Shown: in pieces, positions 8,426 to 63,800 of the stretch | Position numbering within the stretch: the stretch's first letter is position 1 | Layout of the letters: every line of letters starts with the position of its first letter | NCBI GenBank assembly: GCA_013314755.1 | Contig: JABUFA010000003.1 | Location: 62,001-126,000 of the forward strand | DNA: 64,000 nucleotides | Source of the DNA: Chthonomonadia bacterium | Lineage (GTDB): Bacteria; Armatimonadota; HRBIN16 | Direction of reading: 5' to 3' | Program-made: the position numbers and the translations under genes | The notes under the pieces: model-generated | What the model was told of the DNA's origin: nothing | Databases searched by the model: none | What the model saw: only the letters and a program-made list of their open reading frames with translations

Positions 8426-8435
8426 AAACGGTTAA
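8426..8435 (+). promoter_or_regulatory. LacI-type operator-like site upstream of GH94 gene
   Basis: AAACGGTTAA differs at one base from the AATCGGTTAA shared by four other promoter regions around the LacI gene at 13429. The flank GCTGA on the left also matches the site at 11116. It lies 28 bases upstream of the GH94 start. No clear -35/-10 pair was found here. Confidence 0.5.
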
Positions 8436-8462
8436 TACCATGATAACGAGGTGTCCTGCCCG

Positions 8463-10826
8463 ATGAACCTGTTTGCGACCGACTACGGCTACTTCACGGA
8501 GCCGGGCGATGAATATGTGATTACACGCCATGACACACCGATGCCCTGGGTGAACGTTATCTCCAACGGTGATTACGGGACCGTCATCTCCCACCTTGGA
8601 GGGGGGTACAGCTGGCGCACACACGCCAGTATGAACCGATTGACCCGCTGGGAGCAGGACCTGGTGCGCGACAGATGGGGCAAGTATTTGTATCTGCGCG
8701 ATGCGGAAACAGGCGAGTTCTGGAGCCCAACATGGCATCCCTGTTCGAACGGGATGACGAATTATCAGGTCAGGCACGGCTGGGGATACTCTGTTTTTGA
8801 AGGCATGCATGGACAGATCGCCAGCGAGTTGACCGTGTTTGTGCCTCTGGATGACCCCTGCGAAGTATGGCTGTTGCGCCTGTCCAACAGGGGGAGCTCA
8901 ACGCGCCGTCTGCAGGTGTTTTCCTATCTGGAGTGGCTGCTGGGGACTGCGCCCGACTGGCACCGCGAGTTCCGCCGACTGTTCATCGAAACACGCTACG
9001 TGCCGGCGCACGGTGTACTGCTTGCCACCAGTGTGATGTGGGATATTCCGGGCAGAGGCAAGACCCACTGGAACAGTAACTGGGGTTATGTGGCGTTCCA
9101 CAGCGTATCGGCGACGCCGGCTGGCTTCGACGGCGACAAACGAGCGTTTCTGGGGCAGTACGGAGATTTGGATGCTCCCCGGGCGGTGATAGAGGGTAGG
9201 TCGTTCGGCACGCAGGGGCGCTGGGGCGATGGAATCGGCAGTCTGCAGGTAGTGGTGGAAATACCGCCCGGCGAATCGGTGGAGATTGCTTTCGTGCTGG
9301 GTGCTGGCGATGACGAAACACATGCCCTGCGGCTGGCTGGAAAATACCGGCATCTGCCCACGGTGCACGATGCGCTGGCGCAGGTGAAAGCGTTCTGGAA
9401 GGAACTGCTGGGCGCTCTTCGCGTGCAAACGCCTGACCCGGCGGTGAACGTGATGGGGAACGGCTGGCTCGCATATCAGGCGGTCTCCTGTCGGCTGTGG
9501 GCGCGTACGGCTTACTATCAGACGGGCGGTGCGTACGGTTATCGCGACCAGCTGCAGGATAGCCTCGTCTGGCTCCTGCTGGGACAGCCCGAGCGCACGC
9601 TGGAGCAGATACGCCTGCACGCAAAGCATCAGTTTCAGGATGGCACGGTACTGCACTGGTGGCACCCGCTTGCCGAGGAGGGACTGCGCTCCTATTACAG
9701 TGATGACCTGTTGTGGCTGCCGTTTGTGGTGCTGTACTATCTCCACGAGACGGGCGATTTTGCCTGCCTGCAGGAAGAGATTCCCTTCTTTGATGGAGGC
9801 TCGGCTACCCTGCTGGAGCATTGCCTGCGCGCGTTCGAAAAGGCGTTGAGCCGGCGTAGTGAGCGGGGACTGCCCCTGATCCTGCAGGCGGATTGGAACG
9901 ATGGCATGAACGCGGTGGGCGTTGAGGGCAGGGGCGAGAGCGTGTGGATGGCGCATTTCCTGCACTATCTACTTGTGCGCTGGGCAGACCTGCCGGTGCT
10001 GGATGAGGCGACCGCTGTCCGTTTTCGCCAGGAAGCCCATGCGCTGCGCGAGGCGGTGAACACGCACGGCTGGGATGGAGAATGGTACTGGCGGGCGACG
10101 ACCGATTCGGGCAGGGTTCTTGGCTCGGCGCAGAACACGCAGGGGCGCATCTTCCTGAACGCGCAAACATGGTCAGTGCTGGCAGGAACTGCTCCCCCGG
10201 ATCGCGCCGAGCAAGCCATGCGCTCTGCCCGCGAGCACCTGTATACCGACTACGGTGCGCTGCTGCTTGCCCCCGCGTATCGGGTTCCCGACCCCGAGAT
10301 TGGCTACCTCACCCGCTACGCGCCCGGCACCCGGGAAAACGGTGGGGTCTATTCACATGCCGCTTGCTGGGCGGTGCTGGCGGAGCGGAAACTGCACGGC
10401 GCACAACAGGCTTATCGACTGTGGCGCAGCTTCTGTCCGCCTGTGCGCGGAATGGAACCCAGGCGCTACGCCGCCGAACCCTATGTGATGCCCGGCAACG
10501 TGGATGGTCCCGACTCGCCGCACGAGGGCAGGGGAGGATGGACGTGGTACACCGGCTCCGCCGCGTGGTATCTGCGTGCGCTGGTGGAAGGTGTGCTGGG
10601 CGTGGAAGCTACCCTGCAGGGTTTGCGGGTCAAGGCGGAACTGCCCGAAGGATGGGATTCTTTCCAGCTTCAGCGACGCTTTCGCGGCGCCGTTTACCAG
10701 ATCACCGTGCGGCGAGCCAAAGCGGGCGAATCGCCGGGATGCTTGGTAGACGGGCAGGCGTGGGAAGGAGATGTTCTGCCGATATTTGAGGCGGGCACCA
10801 CGCACCAGGTGGAAATCAGGTTGTAG
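8463..10826 (+). CDS. GH94 family glycoside phosphorylase (cellobiose-phosphorylase-like)
   Basis: About 787 residues, the usual size of cello-/chitobiose phosphorylases. These enzymes split beta-linked disaccharides with phosphate into a sugar-1-phosphate and a free sugar in the cytoplasm, saving ATP. The N-terminal beta-sandwich carries YVITRHDTPMPWVNVISN and HLGGGYSW; the (alpha/alpha)6 catalytic domain carries GGAYGYRDQLQDS and ADWNDGMNAVG, where Asp480 is the likely general acid. A short beta-rich C-terminal end follows. No signal peptide. The exact substrate (cellobiose, sophorose, laminaribiose or other) cannot be read from motifs. A GTG at 8451 is an alternative start; ATG 8463 follows GAGGTG at better spacing. 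A LacI-type operator-like site sits just upstream. Confidence 0.86.
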   Translation: MNLFATDYGYFTEPGDEYVITRHDTPMPWVNVISNGDYGTVISHLGGGYSWRTHASMNRLTRWEQDLVRDRWGKYLYLRDAETGEFWSPTWHPCSNGMTNYQVRHGWGYSVFEGMHGQIASELTVFVPLDDPCEVWLLRLSNRGSSTRRLQVFSYLEWLLGTAPDWHREFRRLFIETRYVPAHGVLLATSVMWDIPGRGKTHWNSNWGYVAFHSVSATPAGFDGDKRAFLGQYGDLDAPRAVIEGRSFGTQGRWGDGIGSLQVVVEIPPGESVEIAFVLGAGDDETHALRLAGKYRHLPTVHDALAQVKAFWKELLGALRVQTPDPAVNVMGNGWLAYQAVSCRLWARTAYYQTGGAYGYRDQLQDSLVWLLLGQPERTLEQIRLHAKHQFQDGTVLHWWHPLAEEGLRSYYSDDLLWLPFVVLYYLHETGDFACLQEEIPFFDGGSATLLEHCLRAFEKALSRRSERGLPLILQADWNDGMNAVGVEGRGESVWMAHFLHYLLVRWADLPVLDEATAVRFRQEAHALREAVNTHGWDGEWYWRATTDSGRVLGSAQNTQGRIFLNAQTWSVLAGTAPPDRAEQAMRSAREHLYTDYGALLLAPAYRVPDPEIGYLTRYAPGTRENGGVYSHAACWAVLAERKLHGAQQAYRLWRSFCPPVRGMEPRRYAAEPYVMPGNVDGPDSPHEGRGGWTWYTGSAAWYLRALVEGVLGVEATLQGLRVKAELPEGWDSFQLQRRFRGAVYQITVRRAKAGESPGCLVDGQAWEGDVLPIFEAGTTHQVEIRL

Positions 10827-10844
10827 CCTCCGCCGATATGGATT

Positions 10845-11029
10845 GCTGAAGCCGTGCTTCAGCGCTCCTTTCCGCTCCTTCGTCCTGTCCCCGCGACTGG
10901 AAGTCGCAGGCAACATGCAGGTTAGCCTCCGAAGGAGGCTTTGTTGTGCGTAGCCCGCAACTTCCAGTTGCAGGGATGTCTCCTCCTTGCTCTGACCTCG
11001 ATATGCCCCGCTGAAACAAGCTTCAGCGG
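10845..11029. repeat. Cluster of five small perfect hairpins, dispersed repeat family
   Basis: Five perfect short inverted repeats follow one another: 10845-10863 (GCTGAAGC, loop CGT), 10893-10907 (GCGACT, loop GGA), 10924-10940 (AGCCTCC, loop GAA), 10957-10971 (GCAACT, loop TCC) and 11008-11029 (CCGCTGAA, loop of six). The 19-base hairpin recurs at 51713-51731 with a different loop. The 15 bases at 10952-10966 recur inverted at 51696-51710. No gene is visible in the 373-base gap 10827-11199. Confidence 0.8.
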
Positions 11030-11071
11030 TCTAGAGCAGCCCGCAATTTCTGCTAACATTAGCCTATCAGC

Positions 11072-11100
11072 TTGCAATCACAGAGAGGATGTGTTACACT
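11072..11100 (+). promoter_or_regulatory. Promoter of the dockerin-tailed protein gene
   Basis: TTGCAA (11072-11077) and TACACT (11095-11100) are 17 bases apart. The predicted start near 11107 lies immediately before the operator-like site. Confidence 0.6.
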
Positions 11101-11115
11101 ATTTTTACAGTGCTG

Positions 11116-11125
11116 AATCGGTTAA
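11116..11125 (+). promoter_or_regulatory. LacI-type operator-like site (AATCGGTTAA)
   Basis: An exact AATCGGTTAA, flanked by GCTG on the left, about nine bases past the predicted transcription start of the gene at 11200. A repressor bound here would block initiation or early elongation. Confidence 0.6.
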
Positions 11126-11199
11126 CGGGGTGTTTTTCTGTGGTGTTTCTGACGCAACGCCCGTTCATCGGGCTTTGCCCATAGAAAGGAGGAGGAACC

Positions 11200-12348
11200 A
11201 TGAAAAGGTTCGTGTTCCTGCTTGCGCTCTGCCTGACGCTATCTGCGTGGGCGCAAGCACAGGTCAACGACGTGGTGATCCTGGACAGGGTGTTCAACGA
11301 CGATTCGGATTCCATCAGCAATCACGTCAAGAACCTTCCCACGGTCATCCTGTCCGATACCAAACTGGACGGAGATGGCCGCGCCCCGGAGTTCGCCAAC
11401 CGACATGTGTGGTTCGTGTCCGCCGACGGGGTGAATCCACTCCAGATACCTCTTGATGTGGAGTGGACGCTGGAATACGACCTCACCCTGACGGGTAACC
11501 CAGTCACACCTCGCAAAGAAGCGGGAGGCTTTGCGCGCATCGGAATGCCCTGGGGCTACTCTGAGCTGCAGTTTATGGTCAACACCGATGCCCATGAGGT
11601 GGTGGCTTTCGGCTATCCGTTTCCGTTCTATCGGTTTGACCTGTCGTACAACTCGGGCGATACCATCCGACTGGGCATCCACTTCTTCAAGGACACCGAT
11701 GGCAAGTACAAGGTCATTTACATGGCAAACGGGCTGACAAGTCCTGCCATTGCTTTAAGCGACCAGAGCATCATCGTGCAGAAGAACTGGATTACGCCGG
11801 GCGGCTACCTGCAGGTAAACATTCAGACGGGCAACCCCAATAACGGTGGCATAGCGGTGTTTGACAACATCCGATGGAACGGCGTTCTTCTGCGCAGGGC
11901 TTTCGCTATCAGCGGTAACATCCAGCTGAGAGACTATGGTGGCGATGTGAGCCAGGTGCCTATCGGTGCCGAGTTGCGCCAGGGCGGCGTACCGGTGCGC
12001 ACCGAAACGCTCTTCACCGACTCCGATGGCAACTACACGATACCCGACGTCACTGCCGGCACCTACGATGTTGCCTTCAAAGCCAGTCACTGGCTGAGAG
12101 TGGTCGTGCCGAACGTGACGGTGGTGGATTCCGATGTGACGGGGGTGGACGCCTCGCTCACCAACGGTGACATCGACGGCGACAACGAGGTGACCCTGTT
12201 CGACTTCGGACAGCTGGTTGCTGCGTTTGGCAGTATGCCGGGTGATTCGAACTGGAACCCTGATGCCGACCTGGACGGCGACGAGGAGGTCACGCTGTTC
12301 GACTTCGGTGTGCTGGTGCGCAACTTCGGCGCGATTGGCGACGAGTAG
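11200..12348 (+). CDS. Secreted protein with regulatory-like beta-sandwich and dockerin-type tail
   Basis: The 382-residue product has a signal peptide ending near AQAQ (about residue 21). Residues 22 to about 225 form a domain shared with the PEP-CTERM protein encoded at 12417-13178 (both have VILDRVFNDD, FANRH, RIGMPWGYSE and WITPGGYLQV). A carboxypeptidase-regulatory-like beta-sandwich follows (SGNIQLRDYGGDV to GTYDVAFKAS). The C-terminus has two calcium-loop repeats, DIDGDNEVTLFDFG and DLDGDEEVTLFDFG, typical of dockerins. RBS AAAGGAGGAGG precedes ATG 11200. No cohesin partner is in the window. Role probably at the cell surface; the shared N-terminal domain is of unknown function. Confidence 0.75.
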   Translation: MKRFVFLLALCLTLSAWAQAQVNDVVILDRVFNDDSDSISNHVKNLPTVILSDTKLDGDGRAPEFANRHVWFVSADGVNPLQIPLDVEWTLEYDLTLTGNPVTPRKEAGGFARIGMPWGYSELQFMVNTDAHEVVAFGYPFPFYRFDLSYNSGDTIRLGIHFFKDTDGKYKVIYMANGLTSPAIALSDQSIIVQKNWITPGGYLQVNIQTGNPNNGGIAVFDNIRWNGVLLRRAFAISGNIQLRDYGGDVSQVPIGAELRQGGVPVRTETLFTDSDGNYTIPDVTAGTYDVAFKASHWLRVVVPNVTVVDSDVTGVDASLTNGDIDGDNEVTLFDFGQLVAAFGSMPGDSNWNPDADLDGDEEVTLFDFGVLVRNFGAIGDE

Positions 12349-12374
12349 CGGGATGGGATAGGGCAGTAAACCAA

Positions 12375-12403
12375 AAGCGGGCAGGCTGAATGCCTGCCCG
12401 CTT
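12375..12403. terminator. Bidirectional terminator between convergent genes
   Basis: A perfect 12-bp stem (AAGCGGGCAGGC with its complement) closes a five-base loop between the stops of the convergent genes at 12348 and 12417. A-rich sequence lies on the left and T-rich sequence on the right. Confidence 0.8.
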
Positions 12404-12416
12404 CCATCTTGGGTAG

Positions 12417-13178
12417 CTATCCTCTGCGACGGCGCAGAGCCAGCGCTGCCACTCCCAGCCCGAGCACTGCGATGCTGGCAGGTTCGGGAACGACAGTGAT
12501 GTTGTTGAACAGCGCCGCGCCTGCGTTGCTCGGGTTTCCGGCATCAATCACCACCTGCAGGTAGCCGCCTGGCGTAATCCAGCCGGTGAACAGACCCTGG
12601 GAATCCAGAGCCAGTGCCGGGCTGGAGTAGCCATTGGCGTGGTAGATGACCTTGTACAGCCCGTCGCTGGAGTCCTTGAAGAAGGTCATGCCCAGATGGA
12701 TGGTGTCGCCCGAGTTGTACGACAGTCCGTGATTGGCATTGAAGCTGTAGAAGGGGAAGGGCCATCCAAACGCCACTACCTCATGCCCGTCGGTGTTGAC
12801 AATGAACTGTCCTTCCGAGTAGCCCCACGGCATCCCGATACGCACCAGAAAACCTGCCTCCTTGCGCGGGCTGACCGGACTGCCGATGAGTGTGAGGTCA
12901 AACGACACTATCCACGGCTGGTCGAGCGGAATCTGGGCTGCACTTACCCCATCGCTGGAAAGGAACCAGGCATGGCGGTTGGCGAAGTCCGGCGAAACGC
13001 CGTCACCATCCACTTTGTTGTCGGTGAGCAGGATGGCGGGCCATGCCTTGATGTGGCTGGAGACCGAGTCGGGGTCGTCGTTGAACACCCGGTCCAGGAT
13101 GACAGCGTTGTTCAGCTGCGCCCATGACCAGGTTGCTAAACCCAGGCTCAGCGCCGCCACGAGCAGGAGCCTTTTCAT
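12417..13178 (-). CDS. PEP-CTERM surface protein, paralogue of the dockerin-tailed neighbour
   Basis: The 253-residue product has a signal peptide ending near SWAQ (about 20) and then the same roughly 200-residue domain as the protein encoded at 11200-12348. Instead of a dockerin tail it ends in a PEP-CTERM tag: VVPEPAS near residue 230, a hydrophobic helix and the basic end LRRRRG. An exosortase would sort it to the cell surface. The two genes are convergent and end 68 bases apart, with a shared terminator between them. AAAGGAGGAGG precedes the ATG on the minus strand. A strong promoter (13287-13315) and an operator-like site (13239-13248) lie upstream. Function of the shared domain unknown. 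Confidence 0.82.
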   Translation of the reverse strand: MKRLLLVAALSLGLATWSWAQLNNAVILDRVFNDDPDSVSSHIKAWPAILLTDNKVDGDGVSPDFANRHAWFLSSDGVSAAQIPLDQPWIVSFDLTLIGSPVSPRKEAGFLVRIGMPWGYSEGQFIVNTDGHEVVAFGWPFPFYSFNANHGLSYNSGDTIHLGMTFFKDSSDGLYKVIYHANGYSSPALALDSQGLFTGWITPGGYLQVVIDAGNPSNAGAALFNNITVVPEPASIAVLGLGVAALALRRRRG

Positions 13179-13238
13179 ACTACCTCCTCCTTTCTAAGAT
13201 GGACAGGTTATCTTACAGGGGCTTTCCAGTGGGGACGT

Positions 13239-13248
13239 TAACCGATAA
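13239..13248 (-). promoter_or_regulatory. LacI-type operator-like site upstream of PEP-CTERM gene
   Basis: On the minus strand TATCGGTTAA, one base from the AATCGGTTAA core, followed by CG as at 11116. It lies in the leader about 30-40 bases after the predicted start from the promoter at 13287-13315, so a bound repressor could act as a roadblock. Confidence 0.5.
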
Positions 13249-13286
13249 AACACATTCAGTAACCAGTTTCTGCCCCTTACGCTCCT

Positions 13287-13315
13287 ACTATAGCATAATT
13301 GCCCGTGAGAGTCAA
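13287..13315 (-). promoter_or_regulatory. Promoter of the PEP-CTERM gene
   Basis: On the minus strand TTGACT (13315-13310) and TATAGT (13292-13287) are 17 bases apart. The leader to the ATG at 13178 is about 100 bases. Confidence 0.72.
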
Positions 13316-13366
13316 GCAGAATCACGGGTTTTTTTCTGATTTTTTCGTAAAAATAGCCCGAACCCC

Positions 13367-13395
13367 TTGACAAGTTTGGCAGGATGGGTTATATT
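13367..13395 (+). promoter_or_regulatory. Promoter of the LacI gene
   Basis: A perfect TTGACA (13367-13372) and TATATT (13390-13395) are 17 bases apart. The predicted start near 13402 coincides with the left edge of the palindromic operator. Confidence 0.8.
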
Positions 13396-13402
13396 AAAGA
13401 TG

Positions 13403-13418
13403 CATTAACCGATTAATG
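13403..13418 (+). promoter_or_regulatory. Palindromic LacI operator overlapping its own transcription start
   Basis: CATTAA and TTAATG form a perfect inverted repeat around the core CCGA, a LacI-family type of site. It covers the predicted transcription start and ends ten bases before the LacI ATG, as expected for autorepression. Its minus strand contains AATCGGTTAA, the motif found in four other nearby promoter regions. Confidence 0.72.
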
Positions 13419-13428
13419 GGTAAGCACC

Positions 13429-14454
13429 ATGCGAAGGGAACGAGTTACCATAGCCGATGTGGCGCGCCGGGCAGGGGTTTCGAAGGTCACGGTCTCGTAC
13501 GTCATTAACGGGCGCGAGGGCAAGGTGCGCATCAGCGACGAAACCCGCCAGCGCATCTGGGAAGCGATACGCGAGCTGGGCTATCGCCCCAATGCGCTTG
13601 CGCGTGCGCTCACCCGACAGCGCACCAGCACCATCGGCGTGGTGATGCAGTACGCAGCCATCTTCGGAGGGTGGTCCGGTTTCATTCTGGAGCTCCTGCA
13701 CGGGGCGTCGCACGAGGCGATTGAACAGCAGTATGACCTGATGATGTACACCGGAGCACATGGGGATGATGCGGAGCACGAGGCAAACGCTATTATGGAC
13801 GGACGCATCGACGGCGCACTGCTCCTGCGTGACATCGACGACCCCCTTTCCGATATCCTGGCGGACAGCGGCTTCCCGCATGTGCTGATTTTCACGCGCT
13901 CGCGCCGCCCGGACGTCTACTATGTGGACTGCGACAACGTGAAGGGCGGGTATATGGCGACCAAGCATCTGCTGGATCTGGGACATCGTGCGATTGTGCA
14001 CCTGCGAGGGAGTTCGCATTCTGCCCCCGCGTTGGACCGCTGGCATGGCTACGTGCAGGCGATGCGCGAAGAGGGCATTGAACCCGATGAGGAGTGGGTT
14101 ATCGAAATGCCCGGTCCGCTGTCGGATGCAACGCCGCTGGTGGAACTGATGCGCTCGCCGAATAGACCCACTGCCATCTTCGCCTGGAGCGATGACGTGG
14201 CGATTCGAGCAATGCAGGTGGTGCGCGAGATGGACCTGCGTATCCCCGAGGACGTGGCGGTGGTGGGCTACGACTCCACCGAGGTCTGTAACCATACCGA
14301 CCCGCCGCTCACCAGCGTGCGCCAGCCGATATACGAGATGGCACGGGAAGGGGTCAGGACACTGGTGCGGCTGATTAACGGCGAACGCCCACGTCGTATT
14401 GCCCGGGTGTTCGAACCGACGCTGGATATCCGCCGCTCCTGTGGAGCTTCCTGA
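13429..14454 (+). CDS. LacI-family transcriptional regulator
   Basis: A 341-residue regulator. Residues 5 to about 60 form the LacI helix-turn-helix and hinge (TIADVARRAGVSKVTVSYVING, then RPNALARALTRQRTSTIGVV). The rest is a periplasmic-binding-protein-like sugar sensor (DGALLL, RPTAIFAWSDDVAI, LRIPEDVAVVGYDSTEV, LTSVRQP). It should bind DNA as a dimer and release it, or bind more tightly, on a sugar ligand. The predicted leader is only about 27 bases and no clear RBS is present; the palindrome at 13403-13418 overlaps the start site. Neighbouring glycoside genes suggest a beta-glucan or oligosaccharide signal, which is inference. Confidence 0.93.
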   Translation: MRRERVTIADVARRAGVSKVTVSYVINGREGKVRISDETRQRIWEAIRELGYRPNALARALTRQRTSTIGVVMQYAAIFGGWSGFILELLHGASHEAIEQQYDLMMYTGAHGDDAEHEANAIMDGRIDGALLLRDIDDPLSDILADSGFPHVLIFTRSRRPDVYYVDCDNVKGGYMATKHLLDLGHRAIVHLRGSSHSAPALDRWHGYVQAMREEGIEPDEEWVIEMPGPLSDATPLVELMRSPNRPTAIFAWSDDVAIRAMQVVREMDLRIPEDVAVVGYDSTEVCNHTDPPLTSVRQPIYEMAREGVRTLVRLINGERPRRIARVFEPTLDIRRSCGAS

Positions 14455-14500
14455 GAGGCGAAGGAGTTCACAGGACGGATATGTTCGGCGGGATGTACTG

Positions 14501-14510
14501 AATCGGTTAA
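14501..14510 (+). promoter_or_regulatory. LacI-type operator-like site (AATCGGTTAA)
   Basis: An exact AATCGGTTAA followed by TG, as in the LacI autoregulatory site, and preceded by ACTG as at 11112. It lies 30 bases before the small membrane protein gene and pseudopilin. I found no clear -35/-10 pair, so the genes may also be read from the LacI promoter. Confidence 0.6.
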
Positions 14511-14540
14511 TGCCACTACGCGAGGTGAAGGAGTATGGAC

Positions 14541-14759
14541 ATGAAAAAAGAAGTCAGTCCGCCCGTGGCAATTGCGGTTATCGTCGTCGTAGTGCTTCTG
14601 CTGATTGTGGGCTACGTGGCGATGTCGGGAGGATTCAGCCGCGGCACACGGACGGCACAGGAGGCGGGCGCCGGTCCGCCGATGTATCCGGGTGTTATCC
14701 CGGGTAAGACCAATGCTCCCGTTGGTGCGCCGATTATGCCGGGCGCGCAGGGGCGCTAA
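14541..14759 (+). CDS. Small single-pass membrane protein
   Basis: A 72-residue protein with a lysine-rich start (MKKEVSPP), one strong hydrophobic helix (about 9-28) and a Gly/Pro-rich tail (GAGPPMYPGVIPG, PVGAPIMPGAQGR). The layout matches the larger protein at 7859-8296. ATG 14541 is preferred over ATG 14535 because GAAGGAG (14527-14533) is at correct distance. It lies between a LacI gene and a pseudopilin gene, 61 bases before the latter. It may assist pilin assembly or be a surface tether, but nothing in the sequence proves either. Confidence 0.65.
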   Translation: MKKEVSPPVAIAVIVVVVLLLIVGYVAMSGGFSRGTRTAQEAGAGPPMYPGVIPGKTNAPVGAPIMPGAQGR

Positions 14760-14820
14760 CTGAATAGCCATCCGGCAACACATTCAAAAAACATAAAAAA
14801 CAAAAGGAGGTTCAACACCA

Positions 14821-15660
14821 ATGCTACGCAACCGAGCTTTTACGCTCATCGAACTGCTCGTCGTCATCGCGATTATCGCGATCCTGGCGGCGATCCTGTT
14901 CCCCGTGTTCTCGCAGGCGCGAGAGTCGGCAAGGGTTACTTCCTGTCTGTCCAACATGAAGCAAATTGGGCTCGCCATTCGCATGTACACGCAGGACTAT
15001 GACGAAGTTCTGCCGATGCGCCGAACCTGCCCGGGCAACTGGTGTGCCCGGGGATGCGACGCCAACTGGAAGCACATGCTGTTCCCCTACATCAAGAACT
15101 GGGACCTGCTCAAGTGCCCCAGCAACCCGCTGAGCCGCACCCTGGACGACACCAGCGGCGACCTTGACGGCAACGGCACGGTCGACTGCGAGGTCTATCC
15201 GCCAACCGTGCCAAAGACCTTCCGCAGCTACTTCCTGTACCATGCCTTCTTCAAGTCGGGCTCGCCCGTCGGCTCGGGCGACTGGTGGGCAGGGTTCAAC
15301 TACGCGGAGAACAACTTCCCCTACCCAGCAAACACGCTCATCGTGGGCGAGCACAAGGATGTCTGGCCCGACTACGGACCGTGGATGGCGTTTGACCCCA
15401 ACTGGGGCGCAGCAGGCGCGAACTTCGGGGCACGCCATCGTGGTAGCGACCGTGCGGTAAACCTGACCTATCTGGACGGACATGCCAAGTGGACCACCTG
15501 GGATGCCGTCTGCACCCACGACAACCCCGACGGCACCAATAAGTGGGGCTATGCCAAAGACGCCAACGGCAACGTGATTATCGGCGGTATGGACCTGACC
15601 TGGCTGGACACCATGTGCAGCACTTACCGGGACGCCGTACGTAACGGGCTGGTACGTTAG
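14821..15660 (+). CDS. DUF1559-type pseudopilin (prepilin N-terminal cleavage signal)
   Basis: The 279-residue protein begins with a type IV prepilin/type II secretion signal: [26 protein letters not shown], in which a prepilin peptidase would cut before Phe7 and methylate it, with Glu at +5. The following region ([28 protein letters not shown]) is typical of the DUF1559 family. Near the C-terminus is the H-X9-DG motif region ([20 protein letters not shown]). Such proteins are abundant in Planctomycetes and Armatimonadota and are thought to sit in surface or secretion assemblies. AAAGGAGG is upstream. The gene follows the LacI and small membrane protein genes, and a terminator follows it. Confidence 0.9.
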
Positions 15661-60878: not shown

Positions 60879-63800
60879 ATGGCATTGAGAGGCGCTGATG
60901 GTCGTCGGTTCATACTGCTGTGGGCGATTGTCGCTGCGATAACCCTTAGCCAGTCGTTATCGCTGGCGCAACAGCGTCCCCGCATACCACGTTTTCCCAT
61001 TGTTGGCTCTCCAGACCGTGCCCCTGTAGACCTCAAGCGTGACTGGGATATGTTGAAGGGCAGGGGAACGCCAGAGCAAACCACTAACCTGACCAAATCT
61101 CCGGCGGATGAACTGGGTCCCATCTGGTCTGGGGATGACCGCTTTATCTACTTCTACTCCAACCGTGTCAGCGCGACCGACGGCGCAGTGGGGCAGAACT
61201 ATCACATCTACGTGATGCGCCCAGACGGCACGGACATCCGACAGATTACCACTGAAGCGGGTGACCAGATTGAACCTGCGCTGTCCTTCAACCTGAACCG
61301 ACTGGCGTATGTGGCTCGCGCCAGCTCCGCAGCGCCTTACCACCTGTTTGTTCTCAACCTCACCACAGGTGCGGTGCTCAGCCTTACTCGTGAACGCACA
61401 GACCTGCCGTTTACCGAAGTGCGCCAGCCTACCTGGTCGCCCAGCGGGCTGGAGATTGCCTTCGCGGGCAAGGTCGGCAGCTTCTACCACATCTTCGTGA
61501 TTAACGTGGATACCGGGGTTATCCGCCAGGTGACGGCGGGCAACTGTAATGATACCTATCCCGCCTGGTCGCCAGACGGCAGCCTGATTGCCTTTACTTC
61601 TGACCGCGCCGATGCAGCCGGCACCAGTGCCAAAGCCACCACTGACATCTGGACGGCTACCGCCTACTCGCTTGACCCGTCTACCACCGTCATCAAGCGG
61701 GTCACGAATTTCTCTGCGAACGGAGTGGACAGCAGTAACAAGCAGGCGACGTGGAGCCTGCGTGAAATGCCGCGATTTATCACCGGCGCCAACCGTCCTA
61801 TCTTGTGGCTGGCTTTCGCCTCCAACCGGCGAGACACCAACAACGACGGTGTGCCCGACGCTGTAGGTAGCACTTTTGATGTCTACTTCATGGATGCTAC
61901 TGTTGCGCCTGACCAGAGCGGACTGCAAACGGTGGAGCCAACGGCGCAAATCTACCACATCGACGCCCGCGATGCTACCTATGCCACCGATGAGGAGATG
62001 CCTACCTGGTCGCAGTTCACCAACGCCATCAAACTGGCGCATGTGAGTAATCGCACGGGCAACTGGGACATCTTCTCCACATCGGTGGTGGATGTGAACG
62101 CACCCGAACTGCTGAAGGCGGATGTGGATAAGAACGAGATTGTGCAGGTCATCCCGCGCGTCTCTCTGCCGGGCACGACGGTACGCATCCGCGCCAGGGC
62201 GCGCGACCTGGAAAGCGGCGTCGCAGCCGTGTACGCGCAGATTAAAGACCCCGATAGTCGCTACCAGGACGCGCAGGGCATCGAGCATAAAATCTTCTTC
62301 AATGCCGGACCAACTGCGGTGGAGGGGCAGTCGATCATTCTGACGCTCCTTGCCGTGGAGTTCGATTGTCAGCCGATTGACCCTGCCACCAACACCTATG
62401 TGGCTCTTTCCAATACCATGCCCGGTCGCCCAACGATGGTGACCAGCCAGTTCATTGGCTATCCACCACAGATGTATGAGCCGGGCTATGATGATTTCAG
62501 TGCGTTCAGTGGCGCAGCTCACCCACCCAAGAGCCACTGGCTCCGGCTGTACGACGATGGACCCGCTTCGCAGGGCGGGCACGAACCCGAAGGCGAGGTC
62601 GCTGGTGATGGAATCTACACCAACACCTGGACAACCCCGGCAGATAACCCCAGCGACTGGTACATGGACATCATCATCTACGACCGGGCGGTGAACCCGT
62701 TCCGCCCAACCCAGCAGTCCAACTGGAAGATTTACGATAACATATGGGGCTTCTCCACGAAGCCATTCATCGCCGCCAGCAAGGTGCTGTTCGTCTCCGA
62801 CTACACGCTGGGGCAGAAATTCTTCCAGGGACGCTTCGGCGTTAACTTCGCGCTGGATAACGTCTTCTTCACCTACTGGGGGACGGAATCGTGGTTGACT
62901 GACATTGACATCAACTACCTGCCGTGGACCGGGAGCTATCTGTCCAGTGACACGGATACCGAACCCAAGCCTGTACAGGATACCTGGAACACGCTGGGTG
63001 TCGGCTCCTATGGTACGCGCCAGCCGAACGGCAGCCGCTGGCCGAACCTGGCATTCTGGTCGACAGACTCGCTGATAACCGACTCCCAGAATTACGATAT
63101 CTGGCGCATCCTGTGTCGCGGACCGATTCCGCAGTCCGTCTATATGTCCTACCTGCCTCGTCGGGAACAACAGCCCAGCCCGAGCAATCCGCGCGGCGCC
63201 ACGCAAACGGTGCTGGTAGCAGACCGGTGCATCGTGTGGGCGGCGCCATACGCAGGAGATGTATGGGCAGGTAGCGGCACGATTACCGACCTGAATACCC
63301 AGCGTGACCTGACGCAGTTTGTGGCACAGGGAGGACGCCTGTTCATCTTCGGTGAGGATATTGGCTGGGCGCTGACCCTGAATGGTACCCAGAGCAACGC
63401 TTTCTACAGCACAATCCTGAAGGCGCAATATCTCAACGATGAACACCCCTCCCTGGACCCGTTGAACCGAAACGATTTGTCGGGCACGGATGACCTTGCC
63501 CATCCATTCGCGCACACCACATGGAACGAGCACGCCTACTACGAGCTGACCAGCAACGGGCTGGTGTATGACCCGCCATGGCGAAGCTCGCCGCGGCACC
63601 TGCAGCCCGGCCCAGATATCAACAACCTGTACTTCAACGATGGTTGCCCCAACCAGCGCTATGTGGACGGTATCAATCCGATTGCGCCGGCGCGGACGGA
63701 GCTCAGCTTTGAGGACGGTACGCAGGGGCTCATCTACTGGTTTGACGCCGGCACCGGTAGCAAGGTGGTCTACGGAAGCTTCGGGCTGGAAGGGTTGAAC

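Follow-up and report, generated by a model that had tools for sequence, protein, structure and literature searches.

Regulons of LacI-family repressors were compared in RegPrecise by Ravcheev et al. (2014) across seven phyla (Proteobacteria, Firmicutes, Actinobacteria, Bacteroides, Chloroflexi, Deinococcus-Thermus and Thermotogae), where the operators are even palindromes centred on CG, autoregulation is found in 72% and fewer than 1% of the sites lie in coding regions (PMC4052901). A LacI-family gene also stands beside a glycoside hydrolase family 94 (GH94) phosphorylase for beta-1,2-linked gluco-oligosaccharides in the lin1838–lin1843 cluster of Listeria innocua (PMC3960220). Here we describe a locus of Chthonomonadia bacterium (Armatimonadota), contained in a 64,000-nucleotide window (positions 62,001 to 126,000 of contig JABUFA010000003.1; coordinates below are those of this window unless a contig is named), which very probably constitutes a local regulon under an autoregulated LacI-family protein, with beta-1,2-glucan as the probable substrate. 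Its operators lie upstream of five targets: the lacI gene itself, a GH94 phosphorylase gene, genes for a dockerin-tailed and a PEP-CTERM-anchored protein, and an operon for a small membrane protein, a DUF1559 pseudopilin and a predicted GH144-type glucanase.

The locus resembles the RegPrecise regulons in its CG-centred even palindrome, its autoregulation, its sites before carbohydrate genes and a motif that is kept among orthologues; it differs in coming from the Armatimonadota and in having a DUF1559 pseudopilin and PEP-CTERM and dockerin proteins with a lectin-like fold among its targets (PMC4052901). The Listeria cluster shares the LacI-family gene and its GH94 neighbour, but it contains an ABC transporter and GH3, no pseudopilin, PEP-CTERM or dockerin genes are described in it, its GH94 enzyme is a longer 1,2-beta-oligoglucan phosphorylase (SOGP), and its regulation is a proposal of its authors only (PMC3960220). 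The locus would also work like a polysaccharide utilization locus of Bacteroidota, in that enzymes of glycan breakdown and glycan-binding proteins of the surface would be switched on along with a regulator; unlike those loci, this one would be under LacI control, no SusC or SusD genes are seen in it, and the pseudopilin and the PEP-CTERM and dockerin proteins would take the surface role. The kind of regulon is otherwise familiar; what may turn out to be new is the pairing of lacI with a pseudopilin gene.

The first-pass annotation reported five copies of the 10-bp motif AATCGGTTAA, and all five are present in the window; four have the coordinates it gave, and the copy before the PEP-CTERM gene is one base off (13238–13247, not 13239–13248). 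With up to one mismatch allowed the window contains eight matches, where 1.1 are expected and none of 100 shuffled sequences reaches eight. The full operator spans 12 bp and is imperfectly palindromic, T(G/T)(A/T)A(A/C/T)CGGTTAA, with CG at its centre (Table 1); the sequence at 13403–13418 (CATTAACCGATTAATG), previously called a perfect palindrome, does have two perfect 6-bp arms, but one of its inner pairs is mismatched. An 18-bp weight matrix trained only on 39 sites from nine other genomes of the genus gave the five window sites scores of 23.5–27.7 and the next best window match 10.7, while 60 random 64-kb sequences had a mean maximum score of 10.9 and one of them reached 22.2. The one-mismatch matches at 8632, 22569 and 55081 were rejected as operators, their low matrix scores being at chance level; that at 8632 lies within the GH94 coding sequence, scores 9.0 and shows no operator-like conservation.

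Pattern searches of the whole genome (a 3.95-Mb assembly of 88 contigs) show that the operator is rare. The pattern TKAAHCGGTTAA has exactly five matches: four belong to the cluster, and the fifth is intragenic and on a different contig. TKWAHCGGTTAA, which allows the PEP-CTERM variant, has seven matches, five of them in the cluster. The first-pass annotation had named a motif equally common at random positions or inside genes as a refutation of its reading; the strict motif is instead uncommon outside the cluster. One of the two strict matches outside the cluster is intragenic, and the match at C66:287842 (TGTACCGGTTAA) is intergenic; a perfect 12-mer at C57:37529 was excluded from the sites because it lies inside a 778-aa reading frame. 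When the pattern is loosened by one mismatch there are 48 matches versus 15 for the reversed control, an excess that includes palindromes such as TTAATCGTTTAA. This operator-like palindrome recurs at C33:24351, C40:99827, C47:26163 and C50:45686, where the copy on C40 immediately precedes a gene for a LacI paralogue and that on C47 stands a short way ahead of a DUF1559 gene.

The comparison covered ten members of the genus, our own genome and nine others. They contain 47 matches to the strict pattern, 42 of them upstream of the same five targets (reversed control, 6 in total), and sites recur at these targets in up to ten genomes. Unlinked targets are included: in G003 the GH94–dockerin–PEP-CTERM group is 566 kb from lacI and has kept its sites, and G001, G005, G006 and G009 each have one or more targets on a contig other than that of lacI, again with their sites. 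The GH94 site is found in all ten genomes, one base off the strict pattern in G005 and G004. In alignments of the five upstream regions the operator is a conserved island (0.93–1.00, versus 0.38–0.63 in the flanks): its conservation is 100% at lacI in nine genomes (flanks 59%), 98% at the small protein–pseudopilin–GH144 operon in nine (flanks 63%) and 98% at the PEP-CTERM gene in eight (flanks 38%), and the dockerin-gene operator is conserved in eight. The PEP-CTERM operator reads TTTATCGGTTAA here and TTTACCGGTTAA in most relatives. An orthologue of the LacI protein is present in eight of the nine other genomes (89–94% identity), the remaining one being a genome that is 77% complete, and orthologue and site persist together in every genus genome where both are visible. 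G002 and G006 also have matches to TTAAACGGTTAA, which were left out of the regulon because they probably belong to a different LacI gene; the G006 match directly precedes a paralogue of 29% identity. A LacI gene of G011 on the same contig as GH94 has an unrelated palindrome and was taken for a different regulator.

The LacI protein itself matches the Pfam models LacI (66.9 bits) and Peripla_BP_3, both above cut-off, and thus joins a helix-turn-helix (HTH) to a periplasmic-binding-like domain, as local LacI regulators do, with an even CG palindrome kept among orthologues and rare sites at related genes. Named records with 91–93% identical LacI proteins include bacterium HRbin16, a name that also appears in papers on hot-spring Armatimonadota. 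Outside the genus, orthologues of about 42–53% identity occur in families f7, f12 and f13, in clusters of lacI, a DUF1559 pseudopilin gene and a PF10091 gene (in G073 no pseudopilin was detected beside lacI). Nearly all have a related palindrome. TTAACCGGTTAA is found upstream of the lacI cluster in f7 genomes G015, G061 and G070, TTAATCGGTTAA upstream of that of f13 genome G047, and TGAAWCGGTTCA in five of six f12 genomes, mostly ahead of a short gene for a lipoprotein-like product that comes before lacI. Most of the second sites in f12 are intragenic, and these sites were rejected as regulon members. G015, G061, G070 and G047, which represent four genera and two families, each have a single copy of the palindrome in the genome, and it immediately precedes the lacI orthologue. 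In a tree with the paralogues of our genome the orthologues form one clade (support 1.0) with no paralogue inside. Palindromes are similarly placed at other LacI genes of our genome, but their sequences are different, half-sites included. A search of f7, f12 and f13 genomes gave no close homologue of the GH94 protein (E <= 1e-100), and we therefore infer that it, and apparently the dockerin and PEP-CTERM proteins too, were recruited to the regulon on the branch leading to this genus.

Table 1. Operators, promoters and genes of the LacI locus (window coordinates).
Feature	Position	Strand	Remarks
10-bp motif copy	8426–8435	+	one mismatch
10-bp motif copy	11116–11125	+	exact
10-bp motif copy	13238–13247	-	one mismatch
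10-bp motif copy	13405–13414	-	exact
10-bp motif copy	14501–14510	+	exact
Operator, 27 bp before GH94 start codon, TGAAACGGTTAA	8424–8435	+	matrix score 27.0
Operator, just 3' of dockerin-gene promoter, TGAATCGGTTAA	11114–11125	+	matrix score 26.4
Operator, 5' untranslated region of PEP-CTERM gene, TTTATCGGTTAA	13238–13249	-	matrix score 23.5
Operator, lacI promoter, TTAATCGGTTAA	13405–13416	-	about +1 of consensus promoter; matrix score 25.2
Operator, upstream of small protein–pseudopilin–GH144 operon, TGAATCGGTTAA	14499–14510	+	matrix score 27.7
Dockerin-gene promoter, TTGCAA-17-TACACT	11072–11100	+	by eye and alignment conservation
PEP-CTERM gene promoter, TTGACT-17-TATAGT	13287–13315	-	scan; conserved
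lacI promoter, TTGACA-17-TATATT	13367–13395	+	scan; kept in each of nine genomes
GH94 phosphorylase, 787 aa, cytoplasmic	8463–10826	+	Pfam; PDB search
Secreted protein, 382 aa: ConA-like domain, CarboxypepD_reg, dockerin tail	11200–12348	+	Pfam; alignment
PEP-CTERM-anchored protein, 253 aa, ConA-like-fold domain	12417–13178	-	Pfam PEP-CTERM; AlphaFold 2, Foldseek
lacI-family regulator, 341 aa, predicted repressor	13429–14454	+	HTH recognition helix VSKVTVSYV
Membrane protein, 74 aa	14535–14759	+	conserved in genus; no Pfam or NCBIfam match
DUF1559 (PF07596) pseudopilin, 279 aa	14821–15660	+	Pfam SBP_bac_10 and N_methyl
GH144-type (PF10091) beta-1,2-glucanase, predicted, 411 aa	15742–16977	+	Pfam; no signal peptide

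A good promoter had been said to end just before the site at three of the targets. This is correct for lacI, whose operator lies nine bases after the -10 element in an arrangement conserved in all nine genomes, and for the dockerin gene (13 bases; its -35 element is TTGACT or TTGACA in most relatives); the PEP-CTERM promoter is conserved, but its -10 element ends about 38 bases before the site, which is in the transcribed leader. The scan found no consensus (sigma-70) promoter for the GH94 and small-protein genes, whose operators are 24–27 bp before the start codon. These operator positions relative to the promoters fit repression by occlusion or roadblock. In the absence of inducer, a dimer of the LacI protein would bind the 12-bp CG-centred operator at the five promoters and block transcription, at the start site of lacI and the dockerin gene, by a roadblock within the untranslated leader of the PEP-CTERM transcript, and close to the start codon of GH94 and of the small protein–pseudopilin–GH144 operon. 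Once beta-1,2-gluco-oligosaccharides of the sophorose type had entered the cell, the sugar-binding domain would take up its ligand and LacI would leave the DNA; the GH144 glucanase and GH94 phosphorylase would then be made, along with the exported pseudopilin and the two secreted lectin-fold proteins, which may bind glycan at the surface. The dockerin-gene leader also has a short inverted repeat, GCCCG...CGGGC at 11151–11180, a possible RNA hairpin that is GCCTG...CAGGC in relatives, so that both arms change together in the aligned genus genomes.

The gene directly after the pseudopilin gene, in the operon behind the 14501 site, was not named in the first-pass annotation. Its product is the sole PF10091 protein of the genome, and a phmmer search of the PDB matched it to XCC2207 (8xul, 5e-65, residues 6–409) and to an endo-beta-1,2-glucanase (5gzh, 1e-50, residues 4–396), a similarity to characterised members that covers its whole (alpha/alpha)6 domain and marks it as a predicted GH144-type beta-1,2-glucanase. 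It is thus a full-length match to the GH144/SGL-clan enzymes CpSGL (5gzh) and XCC2207 (8xul), but differs from them in that the genus protein has no signal peptide and its activity is predicted (PMC12102758). The GH94 protein has both GH94 Pfam domains and a catalytic-region motif, DWNDGMN, that it shares in alignment with the cyclic beta-1,2-glucan synthase (CGS) domain; the C-terminal GH94 domain of CGS is also its closest solved relative (562 bits, versus 453 for cellobiose phosphorylase). Because a GH144-type glucanase is co-regulated and the GH94 protein is closest to CGS, the substrate is probably beta-1,2-glucan or its oligosaccharides. Our genome has no second GH94 protein at E <= 1e-100, and so the organism probably makes no cyclic beta-1,2-glucan of its own. 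Neither enzyme has a signal peptide, which suggests that oligosaccharides are imported into the cell.

Several observations weigh against this reading. In the f7 genome G029 TTAACCGGTTAA is present only with one mismatch, and at the lacI orthologue of the f12 genome G073 there is no palindrome. The known SOGPs (about 1100 aa) are not among the PDB matches of the 787-aa GH94 protein, which for that reason was not classed with them, and GH94 specificities are several (cellobiose, chitobiose, laminaribiose and sophoro-oligosaccharides). No sugar transporter, GH3 or other beta-glucosidase gene was found under a site in the genus. The GH144 protein has no signal peptide in the genus, whereas its f7 and f12 orthologues have signal-like sequences at their starts, so that the protein may be placed differently in the cell in the genus and in these families. 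(The starts compared were those of the window protein and of L086, L087, L091 and L096.) The regulon also rests on comparative genomics, with LacI–operator binding and target expression predicted.

Some of these points bear on the idea that the regulon is real but responds to another beta-glucan, cellobiose/cellodextrin or laminarin, with a cellobiose-type GH94 enzyme. The strong match to cellobiose phosphorylases (453 bits) and the fact that secreted dockerin proteins are usual in cellulose degraders give this idea some weight; we nonetheless regard it as rather unlikely, since the higher-scoring solved relative is a beta-1,2-glucan synthase domain, the co-regulated PF10091 protein belongs to a beta-1,2-glucanase family, no cohesin was detected in the genome and no cellulase is seen at a site. 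Activation by the LacI protein at the GH94 and small protein–pseudopilin promoters is less probable again: dual-acting LacI-family regulators exist (Cra/FruR), and these two targets combine the lack of a sigma-70 consensus with a site near the start codon, but activator sites usually lie upstream of the -35 element.

The genome encodes 20 LacI-family HTH proteins, one of which (contig C40) carries at the start of its own gene a palindrome resembling the operator, TTAAACGATTAA, and the sites could in principle be bound by one or several of these paralogues, with the 13429 protein adjacent by accident. The single palindrome per genome at the 13429-gene orthologue in f7 and f13 genomes, the joint persistence of orthologue and site in the genus and the different half-sites of the paralogue palindromes make this very improbable. 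Short AT-rich words do recur, and three of the eight one-mismatch window matches are of that sort, but the five sites score far above random sequence and show position-specific conservation in 8–10 genomes, unlinked copies included; this refutes chance or repeat-derived matches, to which we give practically no credence. Comparative genomics thus supports the proposal of the first-pass annotation that one sugar-responsive repressor controls the five targets as a unit, and from it we infer the binding, the repression and the effector. Its pairing of intracellular phosphorolysis with cell-surface proteins is likewise supported, and is refined by the GH144-type glucanase, the probable beta-1,2-glucan substrate and a ConA-like domain common to the surface proteins.

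That domain, about 215 residues in the alignment of the dockerin and PEP-CTERM proteins, is a predicted all-beta sandwich, for which Foldseek gives legume lectins and PL7 lyases as matches at a probability of 1.00 and TM-scores of about 0.35–0.55; because the model is moderate (pLDDT 68, pTM 0.70) and the TM-scores are in this range, we claim the fold class alone. The two genes (11200–13178) are convergent neighbours whose products have the lectin-fold domain in common but end in different C-terminal tails, as though two anchoring systems displayed a single binding module. Judged by its Dockerin_1 score, the dockerin tail is real (24.4 bits for the isolated tail, versus a curated cut-off of 22.9; 18.8 bits in a full-length scan); cohesin (PF00963), which the scaffoldin of a cellulosome bears, has no match in our genome. 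Relatives have genes near the PEP-CTERM gene that match only the CarboxypepD_reg–dockerin tail (L128:1373–1840, L129:12219–12686 and L081:17503–17943). For the pseudopilin, AlphaFold gave a model too poor to be used (pLDDT 57).

The DUF1559 pseudopilin comes after the lacI orthologue in other families too, and the association extends to other LacI genes: in this genome 16 of 20 genes of the LacI family are followed immediately, on the same strand, by a gene for a DUF1559 pseudopilin, where 0.17 would be expected under random gene placement. Such pairs occur for example at 13429–15660 of the window and on contigs C2, C5, C21, C37, C43, C56, C57, C60, C66, C79, C80 and C88. Among relatives the ratio is 11/14 in G005, 5/10 in G029 and 1/15 in G080, the last by a Pfam model that misses the G080 pseudopilin detected by tblastn. 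We found no paper on this pairing in the literature searched, which is not proof of absence, and the term DUF1559 is rarely mentioned there. We suggest tentatively, as a possibility that we do not favour outright, that sugar loci of Armatimonadota typically consist of a LacI regulator with its own DUF1559 pseudopilin, a substrate-specific surface part for glycan binding or uptake that is produced only once its sugar has been sensed. If this is true, the many DUF1559 pseudopilins of the lineage would fill the place that SusD-type or solute-binding proteins have in other organisms, and the present regulon would be one of at least 16 LacI–pseudopilin pairs in the genome. The locus provides a well-supported regulon with a likely substrate for an uncultured hot-spring lineage of Armatimonadota; co-regulation ties the pseudopilin and two anchored lectin-fold proteins to beta-1,2-glucan use, and the genome-wide LacI–DUF1559 pairing offers a handle on the function of a large, nearly unstudied pseudopilin family.

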